Assembly: GCF_034008635.1 (NCBI RefSeq)
Contig: NZ_CP125378.1
Span: 4,774,501-4,838,500 of the forward strand
DNA length: 64,000 nt
Direction: 5' to 3'
Source of the DNA: Pseudomonas sp. P8_229
Lineage (GTDB): Bacteria > Pseudomonadota > Gammaproteobacteria > Pseudomonadales > Pseudomonadaceae
Shown: one piece after another, positions 15,046 to 25,977 of the stretch
How the letters are laid out: the number at the start of each line of letters is the position of its first letter
How positions within the stretch are numbered: position 1 is the stretch's first letter
Position numbers and translations under genes: made by a program
The notes under the pieces: model-generated
Seen by the model: the letters and a program-made list of their open reading frames with translations, nothing else
What the model was told of the DNA's origin: nothing
The model's database searches: none

Positions 15046-15519
15046 ATGAGAGGCAAAGGAATGCCGAGTCTACCGGGAGCTTACCGATTGCGAGCCGGGC
15101 GCTATGCCGAAGCCAACCGAATCTATCTACTGACAACCAACACACTTGATCGTGAACCGATCTTTGCCGATTTCGCCTTGGGTCGATTGGTTGTTCAACA
15201 ATTTCGACAGGCACAGGATCTCGGCGTGGCGAACTCATTGGCGTGGGTGGTCATGCCGGATCATTTTCACTGGCTAATTGAGTTGCAGAGAGGGTCGTTG
15301 AGCGAGTTGATGCAAAAGACCAAGTCGCTGAGTACCAAAGCGGTGAATCAGGCTACCGGTAGAGGTCCAGGCCTCTGGCAGAGAGGATTTCACGATAGGG
15401 CACTGCGACGGGAGGAGGATCTGGTGAAGGTGGCTCGGTACGTCGTCGCCAACCCCTTGCGGGCTGGTCTTGTTGAAAAACTGGGCGATTATCCGCTGTG
15501 GGATGCGATTTGGGTTTGA
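15046..15519 (+). CDS. REP-associated tyrosine transposase (RAYT)
   Basis: This 157-residue protein has the RAYT pattern. The metal-binding HUH motif is in V-M-P-D-H-F-H-W-L (His73, His75), and the catalytic tyrosine is in V-A-R-Y-V-V-A-N-P-L-R-A-G-L-V (Tyr132). R-I-Y-L-L-T-T near the N-terminus is typical of the Y1 transposase fold. These single-copy domesticated relatives of IS200/IS605 transposases nick single-stranded REP sequences and are thought to spread or maintain them. REP pairs flank it at 14874-14968 and 15538-15606, which is the expected context. The start could be ATG 15046 or ATG 15061, and neither has a well-spaced ribosome site. The gene looks intact. Confidence 0.88.
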   Translation: MRGKGMPSLPGAYRLRAGRYAEANRIYLLTTNTLDREPIFADFALGRLVVQQFRQAQDLGVANSLAWVVMPDHFHWLIELQRGSLSELMQKTKSLSTKAVNQATGRGPGLWQRGFHDRALRREEDLVKVARYVVANPLRAGLVEKLGDYPLWDAIWV

Positions 15520-16227: not shown

Positions 16228-16361
16228 AAACCCGGTGGTTCCTTGCCTGTTCTGGCGGTTGCGCATGGTAGCACCGGCCTCGCGCATGGCTCAAGAATGC
16301 CCCGTGTGGCCCGCAGTCGCGGTATGCTGCGCGGCATTATTTACATAAGGAAACAAGATTC

Positions 16362-17276
16362 ATGGCAGGAAGCAGTTTGCTGGTGCTGATCGACGATATC
16401 GCCACCGTTCTGGATGATGTGGCGTTGATGAGCAAAATGGCCGCGAAGAAGACCGCCGGCGTGCTCGGCGATGATCTGGCGCTCAATGCCCAGCAAGTCT
16501 CCGGCGTGCGCGCCGAGCGTGAAATCCCCGTGGTCTGGGCGGTGGCCAAGGGCTCGTTTCTCAACAAGCTGATTCTGGTGCCGTCGGCGCTGGCGATCAG
16601 CGCGTTCGTGCCGTGGCTGGTGACGCCGCTGCTGATGGTTGGCGGCGCCTATCTGTGTTTTGAAGGTTTCGAGAAGCTCGCGCACAAGTTCCTGCACAGC
16701 AAGACCGAAGATGACGCCGACCACGCGCAGTTGAGCGCGGCGGTGGCCGAGCCGACCACCGATCTGGTGGCCTACGAGAAGGACAAGATCAAAGGCGCAA
16801 TCCGCACCGACTTCATCCTCTCGGCGGAAATCATCGCCATCACCCTCGGCACCGTGGCCGGCGCTTCGCTGACCCAGCAAGTGATCGTGATGTCCGGTAT
16901 CGCGATTGTCATGACCGTCGGCGTTTATGGCCTGGTGGCCGGCATCGTCAAACTCGACGATCTGGGCCTGTGGCTGACGCAGAAATCCGCTTCGGCGGCG
17001 AAAAGCATCGGCAACGCGATCCTGCGCGCCGCGCCGTACATGATGAAAGGCCTGTCGGCGATCGGCACGGCGGCGATGTTTCTGGTCGGCGGCGGCATCC
17101 TCACCCACGGCATTCCTGTGCTGCATCACTGGATTGAAAGCGTGGGTGCGGCCGCTGGCAGCGCCGGGTTTGTGGTGCCGGTGCTGCTCAATGGAGTGGC
17201 CGGGATTATTGCCGGGGCCGTGGTGTTGCTCGCGGTGAGCCTGGTTGGCAAATTGTGCAAGGCCGTGCGGGCGTAA
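16362..17276 (+). CDS. yedI: DUF808 inner-membrane protein (YedI-like)
   Basis: This 304-residue protein matches the YedI/DUF808 family end to end. The N-terminal half has [13 protein letters not shown] and [12 protein letters not shown], and several hydrophobic segments lie between about 65 and 300. The family is widespread in proteobacteria but has no established biochemical function. The ATG at 16362 is the family start. The gene is divergent from the TetR regulator across 134 bases, which makes it a possible target of that regulator, though this is only inferred from position. Confidence 0.82.
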
Positions 17277-17292
17277 GGCCGCCCGCAGGTGT

Positions 17293-18117
17293 TCATGCCG
17301 GGAGATCAGCGCTCTTGAGCAGGTGCTTCGACAGGTAGTGCGCGACGGCTTCATCGGTGTATCGGCCGATGATCTCCGCCTCGGGCAGTGCCTGTCTCAA
17401 CTCGGCATGTGCGTTGCCCATGAGCACGCCTTTGCCGACACCGGCCAACATGTCGACGTCATTCATTGCGTCACCAAAAGCGATGCAGGCCTGAATGGGC
17501 ACGTTGAGGAATTCGGCCAGCTGCTTCAGGGCATTGCCCTTGGAAACGTCTCTGGCCATGACCTCCAGGCACCATGGAAACGTGAACACAGTGCCGATCT
17601 GATCGCCCAGCCGTTGTTCCAGCCGCGCCTGCAGCCTGAGCAGGGCGTCATGATCCTTGCTGCGCTGAAAGAAAAACACTTTCTGCACAGCATGCAGCGG
17701 CAGATTCTCGGCAGCGCAGAGTGTTGGCTGGAAGTCCGGGTTCTGGCTGAAGTCCTTCAGGTTTTCGTCTTCTCGACTCATCAGCCAGCCGGATCGGCAG
17801 TAAAGGTTGATCGTCAGATCGGTGTCTGCTCGGGTTTCCTCAAGCAATGTCTGGACAACGGCAGTCGATAATTCTGCGCTCAGAGCAAGCCCGCCACAGG
17901 CGCTGGAAATGCGCGCCCCATTGGCGGTGATCAGGTGAACCGGCGGGGACTGGCTGTCGAGCAGCGACTCGACGTCAGCCTGATGGCGACCCGTCGCCAG
18001 CACGATGTGATGACCTGCGCGGTTAAGGCGGTGAATCACGCTTTTGGTAAAGGCACCGAAAGTATCGCCTGGCAGCAGCAGCGTGCCATCCAGGTCAGAG
18101 GCAATAAGCAAGTACAT
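17293..18117 (-). CDS. HAD-superfamily phosphatase (Cof type)
   Basis: This 274-residue protein is a type IIB HAD hydrolase. Motif I is D8-L-D10-G-T-L, motif II lies in V-L-A-T-G-R, and motif IV is F-G-D-A-M-N-D-V-D-M. The nucleophile Asp8 and acid/base Asp10 are present, so it should be an active Mg-dependent phosphatase on a small phosphorylated or nucleotide-linked substrate. I chose ATG 18117 over 18120 because AAGGAG is then well spaced. It lies 72 bases after the formyltransferase on the same strand and appears to be the last gene of the island. The inferred role is hydrolysis of a phosphate or CMP-linked intermediate of that pathway. Confidence 0.82.
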   Translation of the reverse strand: MYLLIASDLDGTLLLPGDTFGAFTKSVIHRLNRAGHHIVLATGRHQADVESLLDSQSPPVHLITANGARISSACGGLALSAELSTAVVQTLLEETRADTDLTINLYCRSGWLMSREDENLKDFSQNPDFQPTLCAAENLPLHAVQKVFFFQRSKDHDALLRLQARLEQRLGDQIGTVFTFPWCLEVMARDVSKGNALKQLAEFLNVPIQACIAFGDAMNDVDMLAGVGKGVLMGNAHAELRQALPEAEIIGRYTDEAVAHYLSKHLLKSADLPA

Positions 18118-18189
18118 CATGACTCCTTGGAAGGGATCGCCTGCCCACCCGATTGCCGCCTGTGCGGGCAATCGAGTGGCGTCGCAAGG

Positions 18190-18864
18190 CTACAGGCGTT
18201 CGAGCAATTTCAGAGATTGAGCTTTGGTGAAGGTCATTCGCTCTTCCAGCCGGTGATTGTCCTTTTCGTAGTAGATGCTCATGTCGGCATGCTCCTGCGG
18301 GACCGGAACGATGCGGTCGATCATCGGCAAGGTATCCATCAGCAACTGACGGGCGTATCCCATCGCGCGGGTATAGGTGTCGATCACTTCTTCGAACTCA
18401 GGGTAGATGCAGAAGGCCACCTGATTGAGGATCGGCCCCTCGTCTATGCCTTCGCTGATCTCGTGCAGCGTTGCGCCATGCATCCGCTCGCCATTCTTCA
18501 AAGCCCAGTTGACCGGGCGTACGCCGCGGTATTTGGGCAGGTAGGAAAGGTGCAGGTTGATAATTTTCGCGCAGCAGTCGATGAAGCGCTTGGGCAATAT
18601 CCGCTTGTGGAAAATGACCAGGCAGAGGTCGCAGGCGAAGGTGCCGTCTGCATAACCTGGCAGGTCTTCGATCCGACCGCTTTCGATCACCTCGATGCCG
18701 TGCTCCCGGCAATACTCGATGAGCGTTCGCTCAGTGCTGACCGGCTCGAAAGGATCGGCCACCACGTACGACACCGTGTGATCGGGGGACGCGTTGAAGT
18801 ATTCGCAGGCGAAGATGGCCAGTTCGCCCTTGCCGCAAATCACTACTTGCTCAGGCGAGTTCAA
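18190..18864 (-). CDS. Formyltransferase of the Fmt/PurN fold
   Basis: This 224-residue protein carries the formyl-transferase signature I-I-N-L-H-L-S-Y-L-P-K-Y-R-G. It retains Asn103 and His105, and Asp141 in I-D-E-G-P-I-L, which matches the N-H-D catalytic triad of 10-formyltetrahydrofolate-dependent enzymes. It is much shorter than Met-tRNA formyltransferase and lacks its C-terminal tRNA domain, so the acceptor is probably a small amine or hydroxylamine. The start appears to be TTG at 18864, seven bases after GAAGGAG, overlapping the upstream fused gene by 14 bases and implying coupled translation. With an N-hydroxylase in the same operon, I infer formation of an N-formyl hydroxamate. An amino-sugar formyltransferase is the main alternative. 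Confidence 0.82.
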   Translation of the reverse strand: MNSPEQVVICGKGELAIFACEYFNASPDHTVSYVVADPFEPVSTERTLIEYCREHGIEVIESGRIEDLPGYADGTFACDLCLVIFHKRILPKRFIDCCAKIINLHLSYLPKYRGVRPVNWALKNGERMHGATLHEISEGIDEGPILNQVAFCIYPEFEEVIDTYTRAMGYARQLLMDTLPMIDRIVPVPQEHADMSIYYEKDNHRLEERMTFTKAQSLKLLERL

Positions 18865-20710
18865 CGGCGTTCTCCTTCGCTGGGCTGCTGATGTTTTTCT
18901 GCGCTGCCAGGTCCTGCATCACGTCGCTCAGGGCCTGGATCAACCGGGCGTTTTCGTCAGGCGTGCGGCAGGACACGCGGAAGTACTTGTCGGAGTCGGT
19001 ATTGCGTTTGCCCGAGCACTCCTTGATGTACATATGGTGCTTGTCCAGCAACAACCTGGAAATGGTCTGGGCGTCAGAGTAATGAGCCTTGCAGTAAATG
19101 AAGTTTGCTTCGGTCTTGAAGCCGCTGATGCCCTCGATGGCGTCAAGCGCCTGTTGAAAGGCGCGAGTGTGACTGATGACTTGTTGGCAGCTGGCCAGGT
19201 ATTCCTGCTGGTATTGCGGCAGATGCAACAGGAACTCCTCGGCAAAACCGTTGATGTTCCAGATCGGCAGCAGCGAGTTGATCAGCGCCAGCAAGGTCTG
19301 GTTGGCACTGGCCAGGTAGCCGATGCGAATACCGCCGATACCGAAGGTTTTGCTCATGCTGCGAATCACCACCAGGTTGGGGTGTTCGTCGAGCACGTTG
19401 AGCAAGGTGCTGTCGGCGTGGTTGGAGAAATCGAGGAACGATTCGTCGACGATCAGTGAGATATCCAGTTCCAGCAACTGCTCGGCAAGCGCCGACAGGG
19501 CCGAGGCGGGTGTCAGGGCGCCGGTCGGGTTGTTCGGTGATTCGATGATCACCACCTCAGGGCGCTGTTGCCGGCAGGTAGCGAGCAGCGCATCGATATC
19601 GATAGCGAAGTCGTCCTCCTCCCGCGTGTAGTGGCAGAGCGTGCGTTGTTCACCGAAGACGTTGGCGTATTCGTTGAAGGACGGCACGGTCACGAGCGCG
19701 CTGCCGGGATACACGGACGGTAGCAGCTTGATGATTTCAGCCGCGCCATTGGCTATGCACAGGTGTCTCGGGGAGACGCCGAGGAATTCGCAGAGTGACT
19801 CCTCGATGAGTCGTCTGGCGCCGGGGTAGTTGAGGAAGATGTGATCGAAGTTGTCCTTGATCTTGTCTTTCATCTGCTGTGGCGGGAAATGGAAGTTGTA
19901 GATCAAGGCGAAATCCAGCATCGGATAGCGCCAGTAACCACCGTGGCGGTTCTGGACGAAACCGAGGCGGTCACGACTGGAAATGTAGTTGCAGATCGTC
20001 AGGTCGTAATAGTTGTCGACCTCATACCATTCGGTTGCAGGGACAATGACCGTCTGAATATCCCACTTGCCCTCAAGCGAAGCTTTTTTGAAGACGTCTT
20101 CGTAGTAGGCGTTGAGGTTGTTTTTTCTGACGTTGCTGGCGAGTTGTTTTTTGATGTGCTCGGCGAACGTGGCTGACCCGACCTGGTACAGGTTGACGGT
20201 CTTGTATTGTCCGTCACGGGGCTCATGGCCGATGTCCTTGGTCGAGCCGAAGCCTTGCAGCTGAGTCTCTTCGAGGATGGCGTAGGTGCCTTCCATGTTC
20301 TTGCCCAGCGGCGACACCAGGGCGACCAGATCCCCCGGTTGCTGCAGCAACTGTTGCAGGCTGGAGGCCGAGAAGTAAATGTCACCCTCGATGATCAGGG
20401 TGTTCTGCGTAATGTGTTCGCGGGCCAGGTACAGCGAGTAGATGTTGTTGGTCGTGGCCCAGTCCGGGTTGCTCACGAATTCGAAGGTGATGGCGGTGTC
20501 CATCGCCCGAAGATGAGCGGTAATGGTCTCCGACTGATAGCCGATCACGACGACCACGTGTTTGATACCCAGCGTTTCGAGGTTGTTCAGGGCGTTGTCG
20601 ATGAACGCGATATTGTTGGTCTTGACCAAGGGCTTGGGCGTGTGGCGCGTGCGCTTGCCCAGGCGGCTTCCGCGCCCGGCGCAAAGAATGATGGCTGTCT
20701 GATTATTCAT
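18851..20710 (-). CDS. Fused nucleotidyltransferase / PLP-dependent aminotransferase-decarboxylase (FrbH-like)
   Basis: This 619-residue protein has two domains. Residues 1-245 form a LicC/MobA-like nucleotidyltransferase with L-C-A-G-R-G-S-R-L-G (9-18), P-K-P-L-V-K (25-30), T-N-N-I-Y-S-L-Y-L (87-95) and the metal Asp in E-G-D (Asp110). Residues about 265-605 form a fold-type I PLP enzyme closest to CobD/HisC, with N-N-P-T-G (393-397), Asp422, S-M-S-K-T-F-G with Schiff-base Lys454, and a carboxylate-binding Arg578 in F-R-V-S. This domain order is that of FrbH from FR-900098 biosynthesis, which makes CMP-3-aminopropylphosphonate by cytidylyl transfer and decarboxylation. I infer similar CMP-tethering plus decarboxylation or transamination here. 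ATG 20710 follows AAGGAA. Confidence 0.8.
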   Translation of the reverse strand: MNNQTAIILCAGRGSRLGKRTRHTPKPLVKTNNIAFIDNALNNLETLGIKHVVVVIGYQSETITAHLRAMDTAITFEFVSNPDWATTNNIYSLYLAREHITQNTLIIEGDIYFSASSLQQLLQQPGDLVALVSPLGKNMEGTYAILEETQLQGFGSTKDIGHEPRDGQYKTVNLYQVGSATFAEHIKKQLASNVRKNNLNAYYEDVFKKASLEGKWDIQTVIVPATEWYEVDNYYDLTICNYISSRDRLGFVQNRHGGYWRYPMLDFALIYNFHFPPQQMKDKIKDNFDHIFLNYPGARRLIEESLCEFLGVSPRHLCIANGAAEIIKLLPSVYPGSALVTVPSFNEYANVFGEQRTLCHYTREEDDFAIDIDALLATCRQQRPEVVIIESPNNPTGALTPASALSALAEQLLELDISLIVDESFLDFSNHADSTLLNVLDEHPNLVVIRSMSKTFGIGGIRIGYLASANQTLLALINSLLPIWNINGFAEEFLLHLPQYQQEYLASCQQVISHTRAFQQALDAIEGISGFKTEANFIYCKAHYSDAQTISRLLLDKHHMYIKECSGKRNTDSDKYFRVSCRTPDENARLIQALSDVMQDLAAQKNISSPAKENAVELA

Positions 20711-20720
20711 TGTAATTTCC

Positions 20721-21923
20721 TTATTTAACGAAAATGAGTCCGGGCACCACGTGCTGGTACATCCACACGCCGTCGATCCTGCCGTGAAAGCTCTCCTCGC
20801 CGCCGCTGTCTCCACCGGTCTTGATCCCGGCCCCGAGGCCGAATGCATGGAAGTTTTCCAGCACTCGACCTTCGCGGGTGACCGGGTTGAGTTGCTGGTT
20901 GGTGAGCAATCCGAAATCGTCCTGTTGCAGTTCCAGCGCCGTGCCATCGACATCCAGTATCGGCACCAACCCGGCCTTGTATCCGGTGCTGTGGATCAGC
21001 AGGTCCGATTGCGCGATCAGGTTCAGGACCTGATCGGCAGAGGCCTGAGCGATGTCGACGATGTTCAGGTTGCGGATCAGGCCTTGTTTGATCTTGCGAG
21101 CGAATTCGAACGAGTCATATCGCAGGCCCGAATAACGATTGACCCTTTGGCTGGCCTGGCAAATATCGGCATCGACAAACGGATAGTGCTGTTCGCGCGC
21201 GGATGCAGGAGAGTCGAAGAACAGCTTGAAATCGCGCTTGGTCAGCAAGGTGATGGTGCCAGGGAAGTCCAGTTGCTCCACCAGGCGGATCAGGCAGGAA
21301 ACGGCGCTGTGCGAAGAGCCGACAATGGCCAGGTTGTTGTATTGGCCACTTTGCAGCGCCTGGTCGTGTTCGCCCTTGAGCAGCGCGTCCGAATTGATGT
21401 TGTGTTGGGGGTGCTGCACGGTGGCTTGATTCAGCCGGCCACCGATGTTGAAGATGATTTTCTTGCACAACGCCTGTACGCGCTGGCCGTCGAGCAGATA
21501 GCTGACGCAGTAGTGACCCTGCGCGGTCAGATGGATGTCGCAGACGGTCGATTGCGTGGATATTTCGAAGCGTTTGTAGAGCGCCTTGTGCCGGGCCACA
21601 TAGGTACCGATGTGTTCGAGGAAGCGCCCGACGTAGCGCAGCTCTACCGCCTCGCTCCGCCGCTCGGTGAAATACGCCCATTCTGGCGTCCCCTGCAGGA
21701 ACCGACTCAGGTCGTCCGTGCGGTCCTGGAATTTTTCCAGAAAGACCCCGCCAAGCGAGTTGGCAGTAATCCGGTATTGACCGATCTCGCCGCTGCCCAA
21801 TGTGCTGGATTTCTCAAGTATCAGGCAGCGCTGTATCTGTTCATTCTGAATAAGATCAGGCAACAGCGAGATGTTGGCGGGGCCGGCGCCACATAGGATG
21901 AGGTCATAAATCGGCGTATTCAT
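20721..21923 (-). CDS. FAD/NAD(P)-dependent N-hydroxylase-like monooxygenase
   Basis: This 400-residue protein resembles lysine/ornithine N-hydroxylases (IucD, PvdA). It has an FAD-binding G-A-G-P-A-N-I-S-L near the N-terminus (12-20), a second nucleotide site V-G-S-S-H-S-A (201-207) for NAD(P)H, and the conserved C-terminal type motif H-S-T-G-Y. It probably hydroxylates a primary amine on an island intermediate. The gene ends ten bases before the fused gene, whose ribosome site overlaps this stop region, so the two are coexpressed. In FR-900098 biosynthesis FrbG does this job on a CMP-bound amine. The protein is somewhat short for the family, and a different flavin oxidation cannot be excluded. 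Confidence 0.75.
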   Translation of the reverse strand: MNTPIYDLILCGAGPANISLLPDLIQNEQIQRCLILEKSSTLGSGEIGQYRITANSLGGVFLEKFQDRTDDLSRFLQGTPEWAYFTERRSEAVELRYVGRFLEHIGTYVARHKALYKRFEISTQSTVCDIHLTAQGHYCVSYLLDGQRVQALCKKIIFNIGGRLNQATVQHPQHNINSDALLKGEHDQALQSGQYNNLAIVGSSHSAVSCLIRLVEQLDFPGTITLLTKRDFKLFFDSPASAREQHYPFVDADICQASQRVNRYSGLRYDSFEFARKIKQGLIRNLNIVDIAQASADQVLNLIAQSDLLIHSTGYKAGLVPILDVDGTALELQQDDFGLLTNQQLNPVTREGRVLENFHAFGLGAGIKTGGDSGGEESFHGRIDGVWMYQHVVPGLIFVK

Positions 21924-22038
21924 GATGTTTTCCTGAAAGTTGAGAAGTTCGAGAAAATGGTTTTATTCAGGCAAAGAAACTCCGCGCCAACTTGATTGGC
22001 GTGCAGCGATGGAGCTTTGCAAGTTCTACGTCGAGTGA

Positions 22039-23304
22039 TTAGCCCGTGGTGGGCGAAGTCTCGATGTTTGCTACTGGGCGAGCTGTTTCGTCCGTGGACT
22101 TCCTCAATCGGAAAATCCCCATGAAGATGAGCGTCATCAGCAGGCTGGACACTGTCAGGAATATATAAAGTGCGGTTCCGCTGAGGTTCTGTATGAACAG
22201 CCCGCCGACAATCGGCGAGAGAGAAAAGCCGATGCTGTATAACGATGCGGCACCAAAGTAGGCGCCTCGCAGATTAGGTGGCGCCAAGCTGTCGACAAAC
22301 ATGTTGATACACGGAAAGAGCAGGGTCTGGCTGATACTCATGAGCAATACAGCGCCATACCACAAGGGTTTGATGTCGACGTTGTGCGCAGCCAATGCAA
22401 AGCCGGCCTCGCCGAGGATCAACAGGGCCGAGCCAAGATAGATCTTGGTGTTCAGCGATACCGACGACAGCGCACTGGCAAGCGGCAACTGCAGTATCAC
22501 GATCGTCGAGGCATGCAAGACAATCAACGAGGCGATAAAGGGCAGGTAGCCTTCGAAGGCCAGGGCGGCCATCAGCTGCGGCAAGCTGGAGTCAAAACTG
22601 CCAAAGATGAACATCATGATGATGTTGTTGATCACCAGCGCCAGGAACAGATGGTCTTTGGCGAGCACGCCCATGGTGCTTTTGAAACTGGTGGTATTGA
22701 CCGCCTTGAGGGTTACGCCTTTACCGAAGATCACCACGCCGACCAGCAGCAGTACATAGGACAGGGTCACCAGGACGAAGGACAGTGAGTCGGCGGAGAT
22801 TCCCAGCTTGAGCCCGAAGTAGGGGCCTGTCGCCGCACCGGCGTTGAGGAAAAAGTAGCGCAGATGCATGGCGCGCTCGACCAGAGGCCGAGATTCGATG
22901 ACATCGCCGATGATGGTTTTGATCGGGTTGTTGACCAGTGCCCACGACAGGTTTGCCAGTAGAGTCCCGGCAATGTAGCCATAAGCGCTGCTGCTGATGC
23001 CCAGTAGCAGATAAGAACTCGCAGCCACGACGCAGCCCAGCACGATGATTTTCAAACGGCCGATTTTGTCCGACAGGTAACCGCTGTAAAAACTCGCTAC
23101 CGACGACAGGGCGATGGACAGGGTCAGGATCAGGCCGATAAACGTCGCACTGAAACCAAACCGGGCGTACAGCACGATCGAGATAAACGGCCAGACCATC
23201 ATTGAAGTTGCACGGGTGACAAAGGTGCCGATAAACAATATCCAGATGAACAGTGGCATCTCGGAGATATATTGGGTGATACCGCTTTTTAATGAAGTAT
23301 GCAT
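22039..23304 (-). CDS. MFS transporter, probable exporter of the island product
   Basis: This 421-residue protein has about 12 membrane segments in two groups of six. MFS motif A is in G-Y-L-S-D-K-I-G-R-L. The family exchanges small molecules against protons across the inner membrane. It is the first gene of the island and lies 115 bases upstream of the N-hydroxylase gene on the same strand. Fosmidomycin resistance proteins are also MFS exporters, so export or self-protection fits, but I cannot assign a subfamily. Its base composition looks lower in GC than the surrounding genes, and no clear ribosome site precedes ATG 23304. Confidence 0.75.
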   Translation of the reverse strand: MHTSLKSGITQYISEMPLFIWILFIGTFVTRATSMMVWPFISIVLYARFGFSATFIGLILTLSIALSSVASFYSGYLSDKIGRLKIIVLGCVVAASSYLLLGISSSAYGYIAGTLLANLSWALVNNPIKTIIGDVIESRPLVERAMHLRYFFLNAGAATGPYFGLKLGISADSLSFVLVTLSYVLLLVGVVIFGKGVTLKAVNTTSFKSTMGVLAKDHLFLALVINNIIMMFIFGSFDSSLPQLMAALAFEGYLPFIASLIVLHASTIVILQLPLASALSSVSLNTKIYLGSALLILGEAGFALAAHNVDIKPLWYGAVLLMSISQTLLFPCINMFVDSLAPPNLRGAYFGAASLYSIGFSLSPIVGGLFIQNLSGTALYIFLTVSSLLMTLIFMGIFRLRKSTDETARPVANIETSPTTG

Positions 23305-23897
23305 GTGGATGACGGCCGTTTTTCAAACCCGCGACAAGTGCAGATTGAAGTGGTTGGATCAATGCATTGCCGACGCTGATCGCTGTAGTAATTCATCCGC
23401 AGCTAATTGAAAGTGCACGACACACACTGCCATCCGGGCGGCATAATGAAATGTATCGATGGATGTATTACTGATAAGCCGAGCGACAGGCTATGCGCAA
23501 GTTCCGCTGAGTCTTGAATAATAAAGTCCGCTGCGACCTACGGGTTGCAGATGTCGGGTAGACCAGCGTCGAAAGGGAGGATAAGGGAGAGCCGATATCA
23601 TTCCTTGAATATCGTTGAACACGTCATTGCATCCTTTGCAGTGTTGAACCGAGTCTACATAAGCTGTCACAGAATGTTAATAAAAAATTCACATTTAAAT
23701 TTTTATGTTCGATTTCGAATCTGCTTGTGGCTTTGACTCACGAGTTCGTTAAGCGCGCGGGGCCTGTCTGAAAGACGAAATGACGGCGTCAGTCTTTAGC
23801 CGGGCGGGCGCAGAAGGGCGGGCATGAGAAAAATGTCGGACGTGAAGACGCGCTGGCAAGCTCGACGGGTCGACGCTTGCCAGCGGTTGGAAGGGTT
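23305..23897. other. Gene-free, AT-rich upstream region of the island
   Basis: About 590 bases separate the island from mlaA. The middle part (about 23640-23730) is strikingly AT-rich compared with the genome, for example CACATTTAAATTTTTATG around 23690-23707. Only short unconvincing reading frames are present. It probably holds the island promoter and may mark a transfer boundary. A hairpin at 23851-23885 belongs to mlaA. Confidence 0.6.
23851..23885 (-). terminator. Hairpin downstream of mlaA
   Basis: CGCTGGCAAGC (23851-23861) pairs perfectly with GCTTGCCAGCG (23875-23885) 13 bases after the mlaA stop codon. No direct T run follows on the minus strand, so it may work poorly or only protect the mRNA 3' end. 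Confidence 0.55.
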
Positions 23898-24686
23898 TTA
23901 CTCGGCAATCTGCAATTTGCGCGATTCGGTGTACACGTAACGCACTTTCTCGTACTCGAACGGGGAGTTCATCTGGCCGTAGCGGAAGTTGGTCTGGTAG
24001 CGCTTGTCGACGGCGCGCAGGGCCCAGATCTCAGGATGGTTGGAGCTGACTTCCGATACGTTCAGGTAGTTGATCGCCGATTCGGCGGTGTAGTCCACAG
24101 CCAGGCCGGCGGTATCACGAATGTTCGACGGGCCGAGGATCGGCAGCACGAAGTAGGCACCGCCCGGTACGCCGTAGAAGCCCAGGGTCTGGCCGAAGTC
24201 TTCGCTCTGACGTGGCAGGCCCATGGCGGTTGCAGGGTCCCACAGACCGGCGATGCCGATGGTGGTGTTGAGCAACAGGCGCGCGGTGGTTTCCATCGAA
24301 CGCTTGCCCTTGAACTGCAGCAGGCTGTTGACCAGGTTCGGCACGTCGCCGAGGTTGTTGAAGAAGTTGCTCACCCCGGTGCGCAGGAAGCTTGGCGTCA
24401 CGTAGCGATAACCATCGACCACCGGCAGGAACACCCATTGGTCGAAGCGGTAGTTGAAGTGGTAGACGCGGCGGTTCCACGACTCCAGCGGGTCATAGAC
24501 GTTGAGTGCGTTGAGTGTCGAGCGCTCGAACTCACGCTGATCCAGCCCCGGGTTGAACTTGAGTTTGGACAGCGGCTCCTTGAAGCCGTCGCTGTCGACC
24601 ACTACCGGCGCGTTGGCTTTGCTGTTGTCGGCCTGGGCCACGCCTGCACTGAGGAGCGCTGCAATCAGCAGGAGATATTTAGCCAC
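23898..24686 (-). CDS. mlaA: MlaA/VacJ family outer-membrane lipid asymmetry protein
   Basis: This 262-residue protein matches MlaA. It has N-x-Y-D-P-L-E-S-W-N-R-R-V-Y-H-F-N, then R-T-G-V-S-N-F-F-N-N-L-G-D-V-P-N-L-V-N, and later G-L-P-R-Q-S-E-D-F-G-Q-T-L-G-F-Y-G. MlaA extracts misplaced phospholipids from the outer leaflet of the outer membrane and passes them to the Mla pathway. The signal peptide is A-G-V-A-Q-A/D with no lipobox cysteine, so unlike E. coli MlaA it is predicted to be soluble or anchored by its own helices. Its start overlaps the upstream hydrolase gene by eight bases, implying coupled translation. No mlaBCDEF genes are in the window. Confidence 0.9.
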   Translation of the reverse strand: MAKYLLLIAALLSAGVAQADNSKANAPVVVDSDGFKEPLSKLKFNPGLDQREFERSTLNALNVYDPLESWNRRVYHFNYRFDQWVFLPVVDGYRYVTPSFLRTGVSNFFNNLGDVPNLVNSLLQFKGKRSMETTARLLLNTTIGIAGLWDPATAMGLPRQSEDFGQTLGFYGVPGGAYFVLPILGPSNIRDTAGLAVDYTAESAINYLNVSEVSSNHPEIWALRAVDKRYQTNFRYGQMNSPFEYEKVRYVYTESRKLQIAE

Positions 24687-25977
24687 GGAAGAACTCCAGC
24701 ATGGCGTCGCTGTTGACGCGGTAGTTAAGGTTGCCGCAATGGCCGCCGTACGGATAAACGGTCAGGCGATCGCCGAAGGTCTTGCGCAGGAAGCCCAGGT
24801 CGCCGGGGCCGAGGATCACGTCGTCGGCGTTGTGCATGACGGCGATTTTCGGGCTGTCATGCAGGTAGTCCTTGAGGGCGTAAAGGCTGACTTGGTCGAT
24901 CAGCTGCAGCAGGCTGCCGCCATCGGTACGGGCGCGCCACATCGGGATCACTTGATCGGTCAGGTAGCAGTCGAAATCGCATTGCAGCGCACGCTTGAGA
25001 AACGGCGTGAGGCTGGTGCCTTCGGTGATCGGAAATTTCGGCGGGGTGATCAGGCCGCGACGGTTGATCAGGTCCGAAGTAAAGGCAATGTCGGCCGCCG
25101 AGAAGCGGAACGAGGTGCCGATCAGCATCGCCATCTGCTCGTTGGTCAGGTGCTGCTTGGACTGCTGGAAGTCATAGAGCAGGGCGTCGTTGAGGTCAAT
25201 GTAGCCCTTCTGCTGGAAGTAGCGGGTCAGCTTGCCCAGTACCAACTCATAGAACGTGGTGCTGTTGTTGATGCCTTTCACCTCGGTTTGTACCAGCTTG
25301 TCGAGGTTGGTGACCGAGGTGTAGAGGTTGACCGGCGGGTTGAGCAGCAGGACTTTCTTGAAGTTGAAGCTGCGCCGGGTTTCGTCCAGGTGTGCGACGA
25401 ACGCGGCATCCAGGGCGCCGAGGCTGTAGCCGCTGAGGTAGTACTCGGTGACCGGCAGTTTCGGATGCTGCGCGCGCACGGCCTGCATCACCCGGTACAT
25501 GTCTTCGGCGTCTTCCTTGGTGATACCGGGTGTGGCGAAGCGTGAGGCGGCGCTGATGAAGTCGAAACTGGTCGGCGACGACAGTTGCACGACGTGGTAG
25601 CCGGCCTTGTAGTAGAGCTTCTTCAGGTATTCGTTGAGCGTGCTGTCAAAGCGGGCGCCGGTGCCGGCGATCAGGAAGATCAGCGGGGCCGGCTTGTCCT
25701 GCTCGGCGATGCGGTAGGTAAGTTTCTTCACTGCCCAGAAATTGTCCGGGAGGATGAAGGCCCGCTCCGGGCGCAGGGTGATGCTGTGGTCGGATTGGTT
25801 GATGTCGTCGTTGGACGGCAGTTCCGGGCGCAGATCAGGCGGCGTCGTGGCGATGGTCGCCTCGAACGGGTTGGTCAGGGGATAGCCATAGCTGGCGGCA
25901 TCGATATCCACCGCCAGTGCGGACGCACTTAGAATAAGGCCGCTGAACAGCGCGGCGAAGCGCAAGGAACGGAGCAT
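24679..25977 (-). CDS. Exported alpha/beta hydrolase-fold protein, cotranscribed with mlaA
   Basis: This 432-residue protein has an N-terminal signal peptide (S-A-L-A/V-D near residue 22). The hydrolase features are L-I-F-L-I-A-G-T-G-A in the oxyanion region, the nucleophile elbow G-Y-S-L-G (Ser in Y-L-S-G-Y-S-L-G-A-L), and candidate acid/base residues in N-A-D-D-V-I and G-G-H-C-G-N. Such proteins are often mis-annotated as kinases; I see no kinase motif. The overlap with mlaA suggests a role near the outer membrane, perhaps on lipids, but the substrate is not known. ATG 25977 fits the signal peptide. Confidence 0.75.
   Translation of the reverse strand: MLRSLRFAALFSGLILSASALAVDIDAASYGYPLTNPFEATIATTPPDLRPELPSNDDINQSDHSITLRPERAFILPDNFWAVKKLTYRIAEQDKPAPLIFLIAGTGARFDSTLNEYLKKLYYKAGYHVVQLSSPTSFDFISAASRFATPGITKEDAEDMYRVMQAVRAQHPKLPVTEYYLSGYSLGALDAAFVAHLDETRRSFNFKKVLLLNPPVNLYTSVTNLDKLVQTEVKGINNSTTFYELVLGKLTRYFQQKGYIDLNDALLYDFQQSKQHLTNEQMAMLIGTSFRFSAADIAFTSDLINRRGLITPPKFPITEGTSLTPFLKRALQCDFDCYLTDQVIPMWRARTDGGSLLQLIDQVSLYALKDYLHDSPKIAVMHNADDVILGPGDLGFLRKTFGDRLTVYPYGGHCGNLNYRVNSDAMLEFFRG

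Follow-up and report, generated by a model that had tools for sequence, protein, structure and literature searches.

We analyzed a stretch of 64,000 nucleotides (nt) from Pseudomonas sp. P8_229 (contig NZ_CP125378.1, positions 4,774,501 to 4,838,500; hereafter the window) and found that a cassette of five minus-strand genes, flanked by the genes for a DUF808 protein and for MlaA, probably directs the synthesis of a cytidine diphosphate (CDP)-linked N-formyl-N-hydroxy-ethanolamine, i.e. the antibiotic fosfocytocin or a close congener, and possibly of its hydrolysis product fosfoxacin. This assignment is based on sequence comparisons and structural models. The five genes have the place and order that had been claimed for them from the letters of the DNA alone (hereafter the sequence-only reading) and are given here from the first to the last:

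22039 to 23304, minus strand: major facilitator superfamily (MFS) protein, 421 amino acids (aa), the probable exporter of the cassette product; PF07690, E 3.5e-31; leads the cassette in 15 of 15 loci.
20721 to 21923, minus strand: predicted FAD/NADPH amine N-hydroxylase, 400 aa; GAGPAN at 12, GSSHSA at 202, STGY at 312.
18851 to 20710, minus strand: predicted fused CTP:phospho-amine cytidylyltransferase and CobD-like pyridoxal phosphate (PLP) decarboxylase, 619 aa; PF12804/PF00483 and PF00155.
18190 to 18864, minus strand: short N-formyltransferase, 224 aa, TTG start; PF00551, E 2.1e-21; matches formyltransferase structures.
17293 to 18120, minus strand: Cof-type haloacid dehalogenase (HAD) hydrolase, 275 aa from the ATG at 18120 (alternative start 18171); PF08282, 3.6e-51.

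The gaps from the MFS gene to the HAD gene are 115 nt, 10 nt, a 14-nt overlap, and 69 nt, in agreement with the tight or overlapping spacing described for the middle of the island: 10 nt separate the stop of the FAD gene from the fused-gene start at 20710, and the formyltransferase start sits 14 nt inside the 3' end of the fused gene. The ATG at 20710, giving 619 aa, is most likely the start of the fused gene, because the alternative 700-aa frame extending to 20953 enters the FAD gene.

From its sequence and modelled structure, the fused protein is predicted to be a LicC-type cytidylyltransferase (residues ~1-240) joined to a CobD-like PLP decarboxylase (residues ~241-619). In sequence searches, the N-terminal 240 residues matched LicC, a CTP:phosphocholine cytidylyltransferase, at 5.6e-13 and PntC at 2e-8, ahead of the best sugar nucleotidyltransferase at 1.4e-6; a grouping with the sugar enzymes, which the sequence-only reading had named, in combination with homologues in lipopolysaccharide or capsule loci, as fatal to it, was thus not observed. 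The LicC/PntC consensus GxGxRL..T...PK is present with its lysine retained (G12 as the first G, G14, R16, and K26); among 60 relatives of the fused protein, G14 and R16 are nearly invariant and K26, D110, K170, E230, D232, N394, D422, K454, and R578 are invariant. FrbH, the corresponding protein of FR-900098 biosynthesis, needs the lysine matching K26, as reported for a K38A variant (PMC6697681). LicC and PntC occur as single enzymes or joined to a class V transaminase, whereas the window enzyme is fused to a CobD-like decarboxylase. The C-terminal domain matched 6oux (SMUL_1544) at 1.2e-39, better than CobD at 1.5e-31; the PDB labels SMUL_1544 a threonine phosphate decarboxylase-like enzyme, and we take it to be a phosphoserine decarboxylase. 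The folds ranked highest for the model of the fused protein (pLDDT 94.2) include those of the PntC-transaminase fusion, of CobD, and of SMUL_1544, and the latter two superimpose on the C-terminal domain at 2.2-2.9 Å over about 340-350 columns (CobD at 2.2 Å over ~340). The PLP domain is of fold-type I and has the Schiff-base lysine K454, D422, and N394 in a CobD-like arrangement. Unlike CobD and SMUL_1544, whose fold and PLP residues it shares, this domain is fused to a cytidylyltransferase and encoded among genes for N-hydroxylation and formylation; its likely substrate is CDP-linked or free phosphoserine.

The FAD enzyme has dinucleotide motifs for FAD as well as for NADPH and is folded like the amine N-hydroxylases of siderophore pathways (NMO; class B flavin N-hydroxylating monooxygenases). 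FrbG, the N-hydroxylase of the FR-900098 pathway, was not among the PDB matches of the FAD-family profile, nor among the Foldseek/VIA matches listed, an absence that proves nothing. As N-formyl-N-hydroxy groups bind iron and the fold is that of siderophore enzymes, the product could be a small metallophore of the hydroxamate type, with phosphoethanolamine as its scaffold, and no antibiotic; we regard this as very improbable, given that each predicted molecule carries a single hydroxamate and that no receptor or iron gene was noticed among the flanks inspected. N-formyltransferases using 10-formyl-tetrahydrofolate have an Asn-His-Asp triad and an LPxxxG loop, and the short formyltransferase shows the catalytic triad N103-H105-D141 along with SYLPKYRG, both motifs being kept in 15 of 15 cassette loci. 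The nucleotidyltransferase/PLP fusion, the N-hydroxylase fold, and the formyltransferase in the acyl position, all proposed by the sequence-only reading, are therefore upheld by domain, sequence, and fold matches. For the HAD protein, the YigL and HMP-PP phosphatase models scored highest, both under their cut-offs, and its role is uncertain: it could carry out a CMP release step, release fosfoxacin, remove leaked product, or serve in inactivation or recycling. On plasmids of Granulicella tundricola (H24) and Sphingomonas parapaucimobilis (H25), homologues of the FAD enzyme with 24-25% identity lie under DegT-type aminotransferase annotations, which suggests an N-hydroxylase-like domain fused to an aminotransferase.

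Fosfocytocin and fosfoxacin were described in 1990, the cytidine form (fosfocytocin) presumably from P. fluorescens strain PK-52. By computation, adding O and CO to CDP-ethanolamine (C11H20N4O11P2) yields C12H20N4O13P2, which is exactly the formula of fosfocytocin given in a secondary table (Table 2 of PMC12748000). Likewise, fosmidomycin with a CH2 swapped for O becomes C3H8NO6P, the two-carbon fosfoxacin. The latter is presented as the alpha-oxa analogue of fosmidomycin, obtained from P. fluorescens and inhibiting 1-deoxy-D-xylulose 5-phosphate reductoisomerase (DXR) (PMC9782300, PMC9919496), with a modest effect on the E. coli enzyme, ~8 times weaker than that of fosmidomycin (PMC9919496). 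The predicted product of the cassette is thus identical in formula to fosfocytocin, the genus matches, and the formyl, N-hydroxy, cytidine, and diphosphate parts are each covered by a gene; by their predicted functions, the enzyme classes of the cassette suffice for CDP-(N-formyl-N-hydroxy)ethanolamine. We found no biosynthetic genes for fosfocytocin, fosfoxacin, or fosfadecin in the open-licence literature, which leaves subscription journals mostly uncovered and is not proof of absence. As no such genes are known to us, the likeness is a product match and not a gene match. 4-Formylaminooxyvinylglycine (gvg operon) was also considered for the formyl-N-O group and was set aside, since the cytidylyltransferase-PLP fusion indicated CDP chemistry.

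We infer the substrate, the order of the steps, the product, and the role of the HAD protein in the following proposal. The route would start from O-phospho-L-serine, supplied by central metabolism or, in Photorhabdus and Photobacterium, by a dedicated serine kinase. The LicC-like domain would couple it to CMP and the CobD-like PLP domain would decarboxylate it, in either order, to give CDP-ethanolamine, whose amine, held on CDP, would be N-hydroxylated by the FAD enzyme; the formyltransferase would then transfer a formyl group from 10-formyl-tetrahydrofolate, and the MFS protein would carry the product out of the cell. The Cof-type HAD protein may either release or inactivate the free phosphate, which as the alpha-oxa isostere of fosmidomycin would inhibit DXR.

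In order to define the distribution of the cassette, we scanned genome contigs with the fused protein, which gave 191 relatives, and retained the best 80 loci. Eleven of these 80 have genes for the MFS protein, the FAD enzyme, and the formyltransferase in the kept order (2 in Pseudomonas, 8 in Photorhabdus, and one in Photobacterium galatheae), 10 of the 11 along with the HAD gene. Among 398 Pseudomonas genomes, 8 encode the fused protein at E <=1e-60 and 5 of them, own genome included, also encode the FAD enzyme and the formyltransferase. This amounts to 15 distinct cassette loci, 6 in Pseudomonas including the window, 8 in Photorhabdus, and 1 in Photobacterium, where L002, L095, and L118, which are apparently one contig of 26,748 bases, were counted once. 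Identity outside Pseudomonas ranges from 46 to 67%, and the preservation of the order in 15 loci of three genera is more than chance. The HAD gene is present in 14 of the 15 loci; it was not found in the Photobacterium galatheae locus (L010) and may lie elsewhere. In that locus, a gene for an Orn/DAP/Arg-type PLP decarboxylase (L010:10809-12041) occupies the place after the HAD position. In Photorhabdus thracensis, ~1.1 kb interrupts the fused gene (L011:9338-10441), so that its cassette is probably inactive.

In Pseudomonas, the cassette is found at a constant site, bracketed by the DUF808 and MlaA genes in 6 of 6 carriers:

16362 to 17276, plus strand: DUF808 protein, a flank outside the cassette; PF05661; present in 6 of 6 Pseudomonas carriers.
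23898 to 24686, minus strand: MlaA lipoprotein, a flank outside the cassette; PF04333; present in 6 of 6 Pseudomonas carriers.
17277 to 23897, no strand assigned: probable inserted segment of 6.6 kb from DUF808 to MlaA, indicated by the close-set flanks of relatives and by GC content.

Among 20 other Pseudomonas genomes searched that have both flanking genes, the spacing between the two, calculated from listed coordinates, is 73-198 nt in 7 and 0.7-1.3 kb in 2, the genes being non-adjacent or on different contigs in the remaining 11; the distance in the genome of P8_229 is 6,627 nt. The GC content of the cassette segment is 0.560, as against 0.595 in the rest of the window. From these sequence features, it is probable that the segment was inserted between DUF808 and MlaA in Pseudomonas. 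Other flanks are found in the other genera, e.g. GNAT, SeqA, phosphoglucomutase (adjoining SeqA), and Kdp genes in the Photorhabdus locus L003, or GNAT, ABC, and PLP decarboxylase genes in the Photobacterium locus L010.

The sequence-only reading had described the cassette as a route to a CMP-tethered phosphono-hydroxamate. The CMP-tethered hydroxamate logic stands; the phosphono part does not, as the phosphoenolpyruvate (PEP) mutase model TIGR02320 gave 5 matches in the complete genome, none over the cut-off, the best scoring 123.1 bits against the 319.55 required. An annotated PEP mutase of Bradyrhizobium passed as a positive control (332.9 bits), and 0 of 14 control genomes had a match over the cut-off. 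A PEP mutase motif, EDKx5NS, was discarded because it missed the annotated Bradyrhizobium enzyme. In addition, no relative of the PEP mutase query, nor of the CDP-alcohol phosphatidyltransferase, LicD, acetyltransferase, or DXR queries, was found in the window and the 15 cassette sequences at E 1e-3. An FR-900098-like product, i.e. a fosmidomycin-type compound with a C-P bond supplied from elsewhere in the genome, would agree with the enzyme classes, which are those of FrbH and FrbG (PMC6697681, PMC7347517), and PEP-mutase-superfamily proteins are indeed encoded at 6 places in the genome (PF13714). Yet such a bond is unnecessary for explaining any gene, as a phosphate ester derived from phosphoserine accounts for the biosynthetic genes; the transferred group would be formyl instead of the acetyl transferred by AAC(3)-type enzymes; and, together with the PEP mutase results, this makes the phosphonate a highly unlikely product.

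The resemblance to the FR-900098 pathway of Streptomyces rubellomurinus (FrbH, FrbG, FrbF) covers the cytidylyltransferase-PLP fusion, FrbH being compared by architecture only, the flavin N-hydroxylase, here predicted to use an amine bound to CMP, the acyl transfer, and the predicted target class. By analogy, the cassette would work like that pathway after the first steps. The two differ in that, on the side of the window, PEP mutase is below the cut-off, a phosphate ester is predicted, the acyl gene encodes a PF00551 formyltransferase and not an AAC(3)-type acetyltransferase, and there is one DXR; owing to the PEP mutase result, the defining features of the FR-900098 type are only partly present. 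Pathways of this type are expected to have an additional DXR copy for self-resistance. The genome of P8_229 has a single DXR gene, without an additional copy, and this, with no DXR relative found in the cassettes, would fit a product masked as a CDP compound until export. With the fosmidomycin pathway of Streptomyces lavendulae, the cassette would have in common the N-formyl hydroxamate end group, whereas fosmidomycin is a phosphonate; the fosmidomycin pathway itself is said, in the title of Parkinson 2019, to diverge from related pathways.

The remoter relatives of the fused protein have a different genomic context. In 94 loci, the two domains are encoded by separate genes in 59 and fused in 29, with 6 too incomplete to decide. 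Gene sets that combine a cytidylyltransferase resembling LicC, a PLP enzyme resembling CobD, and a protein of the CDP-alcohol phosphatidyltransferase family are widespread (L012-L080; e.g. L012:436-3056), with hosts among Bacteroidota, relatives of sulfate reducers, Chloroflexota, and Methanococcoides/Methanosarcina; from their sequences, they look like a Kennedy-type route from phosphoserine to phosphoethanolamine lipids. In 62 of the 69 remoter loci, the gene starting <=300 nt after the PLP part belongs to one family, present in 63 of the 69, of which one representative was identified as a CDP-alcohol phosphatidyltransferase in a Pfam scan. Such neighbours would be expected of an ancestral pair producing a CDP-amino-alcohol that goes into lipids. 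In 13 remoter loci, a neighbouring gene belongs to a methyltransferase family. A second Pseudomonas set (L014:5728-11037, and likewise L099 and L100) is centred on a fused protein with 44-45% identity. In L014 it also encodes LicD, an FMN reductase, an O-methyltransferase, and a RibD-like deaminase-reductase, and LicD recurs in the other two loci; none of the three yielded an FAD homologue.

Given that the remoter relatives adjoin CDP-alcohol phosphatidyltransferases or LicD proteins, the cassette might supply a CDP-amine destined for a glycan or lipid acceptor, in which case formylation would be a decoration. We consider such a surface or lipid modification most improbable: relatives of the phosphatidyltransferase and LicD queries were not found in the window or the 15 cassette sequences, and the cassette includes a dedicated N-hydroxylase and an MFS exporter. 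Moreover, apart from phosphoglucomutase, no surface-polysaccharide genes were seen in the scanned flanks of two loci, glycosyltransferases not having been searched systematically. Of the lipopolysaccharide or capsule context that would count against the sequence-only reading, nothing further was seen in the flanks of these two loci, and the remoter relatives do lie beside lipid or LicD genes.

Other relatives combine the fused protein with a putative acetyltransferase. The Priestia megaterium plasmid pBM700 (L102:3543-11647) encodes a fused relative with 42.7% identity, an FAD homologue with 35% identity, and an AAC(3)-type acetyltransferase, as well as two ATP-grasp proteins and an unannotated CDP-alcohol phosphatidyltransferase-like frame, and the gene that comes next, in the same orientation, encodes DXR. 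A lantibiotic region lies a few kb away. Plasmids of Erwinia rhapontici and Rahnella sikkimica carry FAD, fused, and phosphatidyltransferase genes with an AAC(3)-like stretch. Stretches of AAC(3) type are thus shared by the relatives from Priestia, Erwinia, and Rahnella; a search of the window with the Priestia acetyltransferase found nothing related. FrbF belongs to the same Antibiotic_NAT family as this AAC(3)-type enzyme (PMC8956665); it was not among the four PDB matches listed for the Priestia acetyltransferase. A tree was computed from 47 of 89 rows, L011, L095, L108, and L038 having been excluded because they were incomplete, interrupted, or duplicated, and only about one row in three having been kept from the separate-gene group. 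In this tree, the 14 formyltransferase-type rows cluster as a single clade (100/100). This clade joins Priestia, Erwinia, Rahnella, and three Pseudomonas LicD-type rows in a group of 20 that is not strongly supported (88/65), and the placement of the Priestia and LicD rows is unsure because of a long-branch warning. A separate group of 25 rows is mostly lipid-linked (98/97).

An extra gene of 131 aa lies between the MFS and FAD genes in 9 of the 15 loci, namely all those of Photorhabdus and Photobacterium. Free serine kinases of the SerK/SbnI kind have a ParB/Srx-type fold, a catalytic Glu, and a DGHHR motif. Searching the PDB up to E 1 with the product of the 131-aa gene gave only three weak matches (E 0.2-0.5), two of them named free serine kinase and one a conserved hypothetical protein. 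Its E15 aligned with residue 30 of SerK, where the 5x0j sequence has a glutamine, presumably as a mutant, and E15 and D50-GHHR (DGHHR) are invariant in 7 sequences of the 131-aa protein. The kinase activity of SbnI is stated to require Glu20 and Asp58 (PMC9641203), and SerK and SbnI are grouped as kinases in a text that also reports CTP binding by a SerK-like protein (PMC12704722). When its product was used as a protein query, 1 relative came up, named ParB N-terminal domain-containing protein, which was too few to build a deeper profile; the Photobacterium copy (63%) came up only via the cassette loci.

This gene bears on the choice of substrate. Because the PLP domain is also near CobD, a threonine-phosphate decarboxylase, threonine or homoserine phosphate could be used instead, leading to a CDP-linked N-formyl-N-hydroxy aminopropanol. 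We consider this unlikely, although less so than the metallophore, phosphonate, and surface alternatives. Ethanolamine from phosphoserine is indicated by the serine-kinase-like partner gene, itself a weak argument, by SMUL_1544 being the nearest match and outscoring CobD, by the CDP-alcohol phosphatidyltransferase neighbours of the relatives, which fit ethanolamine without proving it, and by the formula of fosfocytocin, which matches for the two-carbon compound.

Several points weigh against the assignment of the cassette to fosfocytocin. Judged by Z, disulfide reductases and flavin monooxygenases of other kinds match the model of the FAD enzyme nearly as well, and a Cof-type HAD protein is no obvious nucleotide pyrophosphatase. 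The formula match rests on a secondary table, the producer strain PK-52 and this locus are not linked, and unrelated genes may make fosfocytocin. The 131-aa gene is absent in 6 of 6 Pseudomonas copies, a Pfam scan of its product gives no match, and the serine-kinase likeness is weak. Finally, the sole DXR-linked relative, that of Priestia, is remote, and its DXR may not serve self-resistance, in view of the phosphatidyltransferase-like frame and the pair of ATP-grasp genes in the cluster and of an isoprenoid enzyme annotated a few kb away.

Beyond the product itself, we see roughly even chances that the cassette is the missing fosfocytocin/fosfoxacin locus, founding a class of PEP-mutase-free DXR inhibitors with its origin in a lipid pathway via CDP-ethanolamine. 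In such a class, the nucleotide would serve as a biosynthetic handle and at the same time belong to the exported, masked antibiotic, and formyl (Pseudomonas, Photorhabdus, and Photobacterium) and acetyl (Priestia, Erwinia, and Rahnella) lineages would make different congeners. If this holds, an orphan antibiotic would gain its genes, and three proteins with four activities would provide a short route by which a central metabolite becomes a fosmidomycin isostere without C-P bond formation. This would also explain why genome mining based on PEP mutase misses such compounds, and insect-associated Photorhabdus as well as the Erwinia, Rahnella, and Priestia plasmids would be possible sources of related DXR inhibitors.

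Within positions 16300-25000, no structured RNA was found with Rfam at the gathering score. Near the cassette, neither promoter-like sites (2, against a shuffle mean of 3.2) nor terminator-like sites (9, against a shuffle mean of 6.3) were clearly above shuffled sequences. Elsewhere in the window, the frame at 15046-15519 resembles a REP-associated tyrosine transposase.

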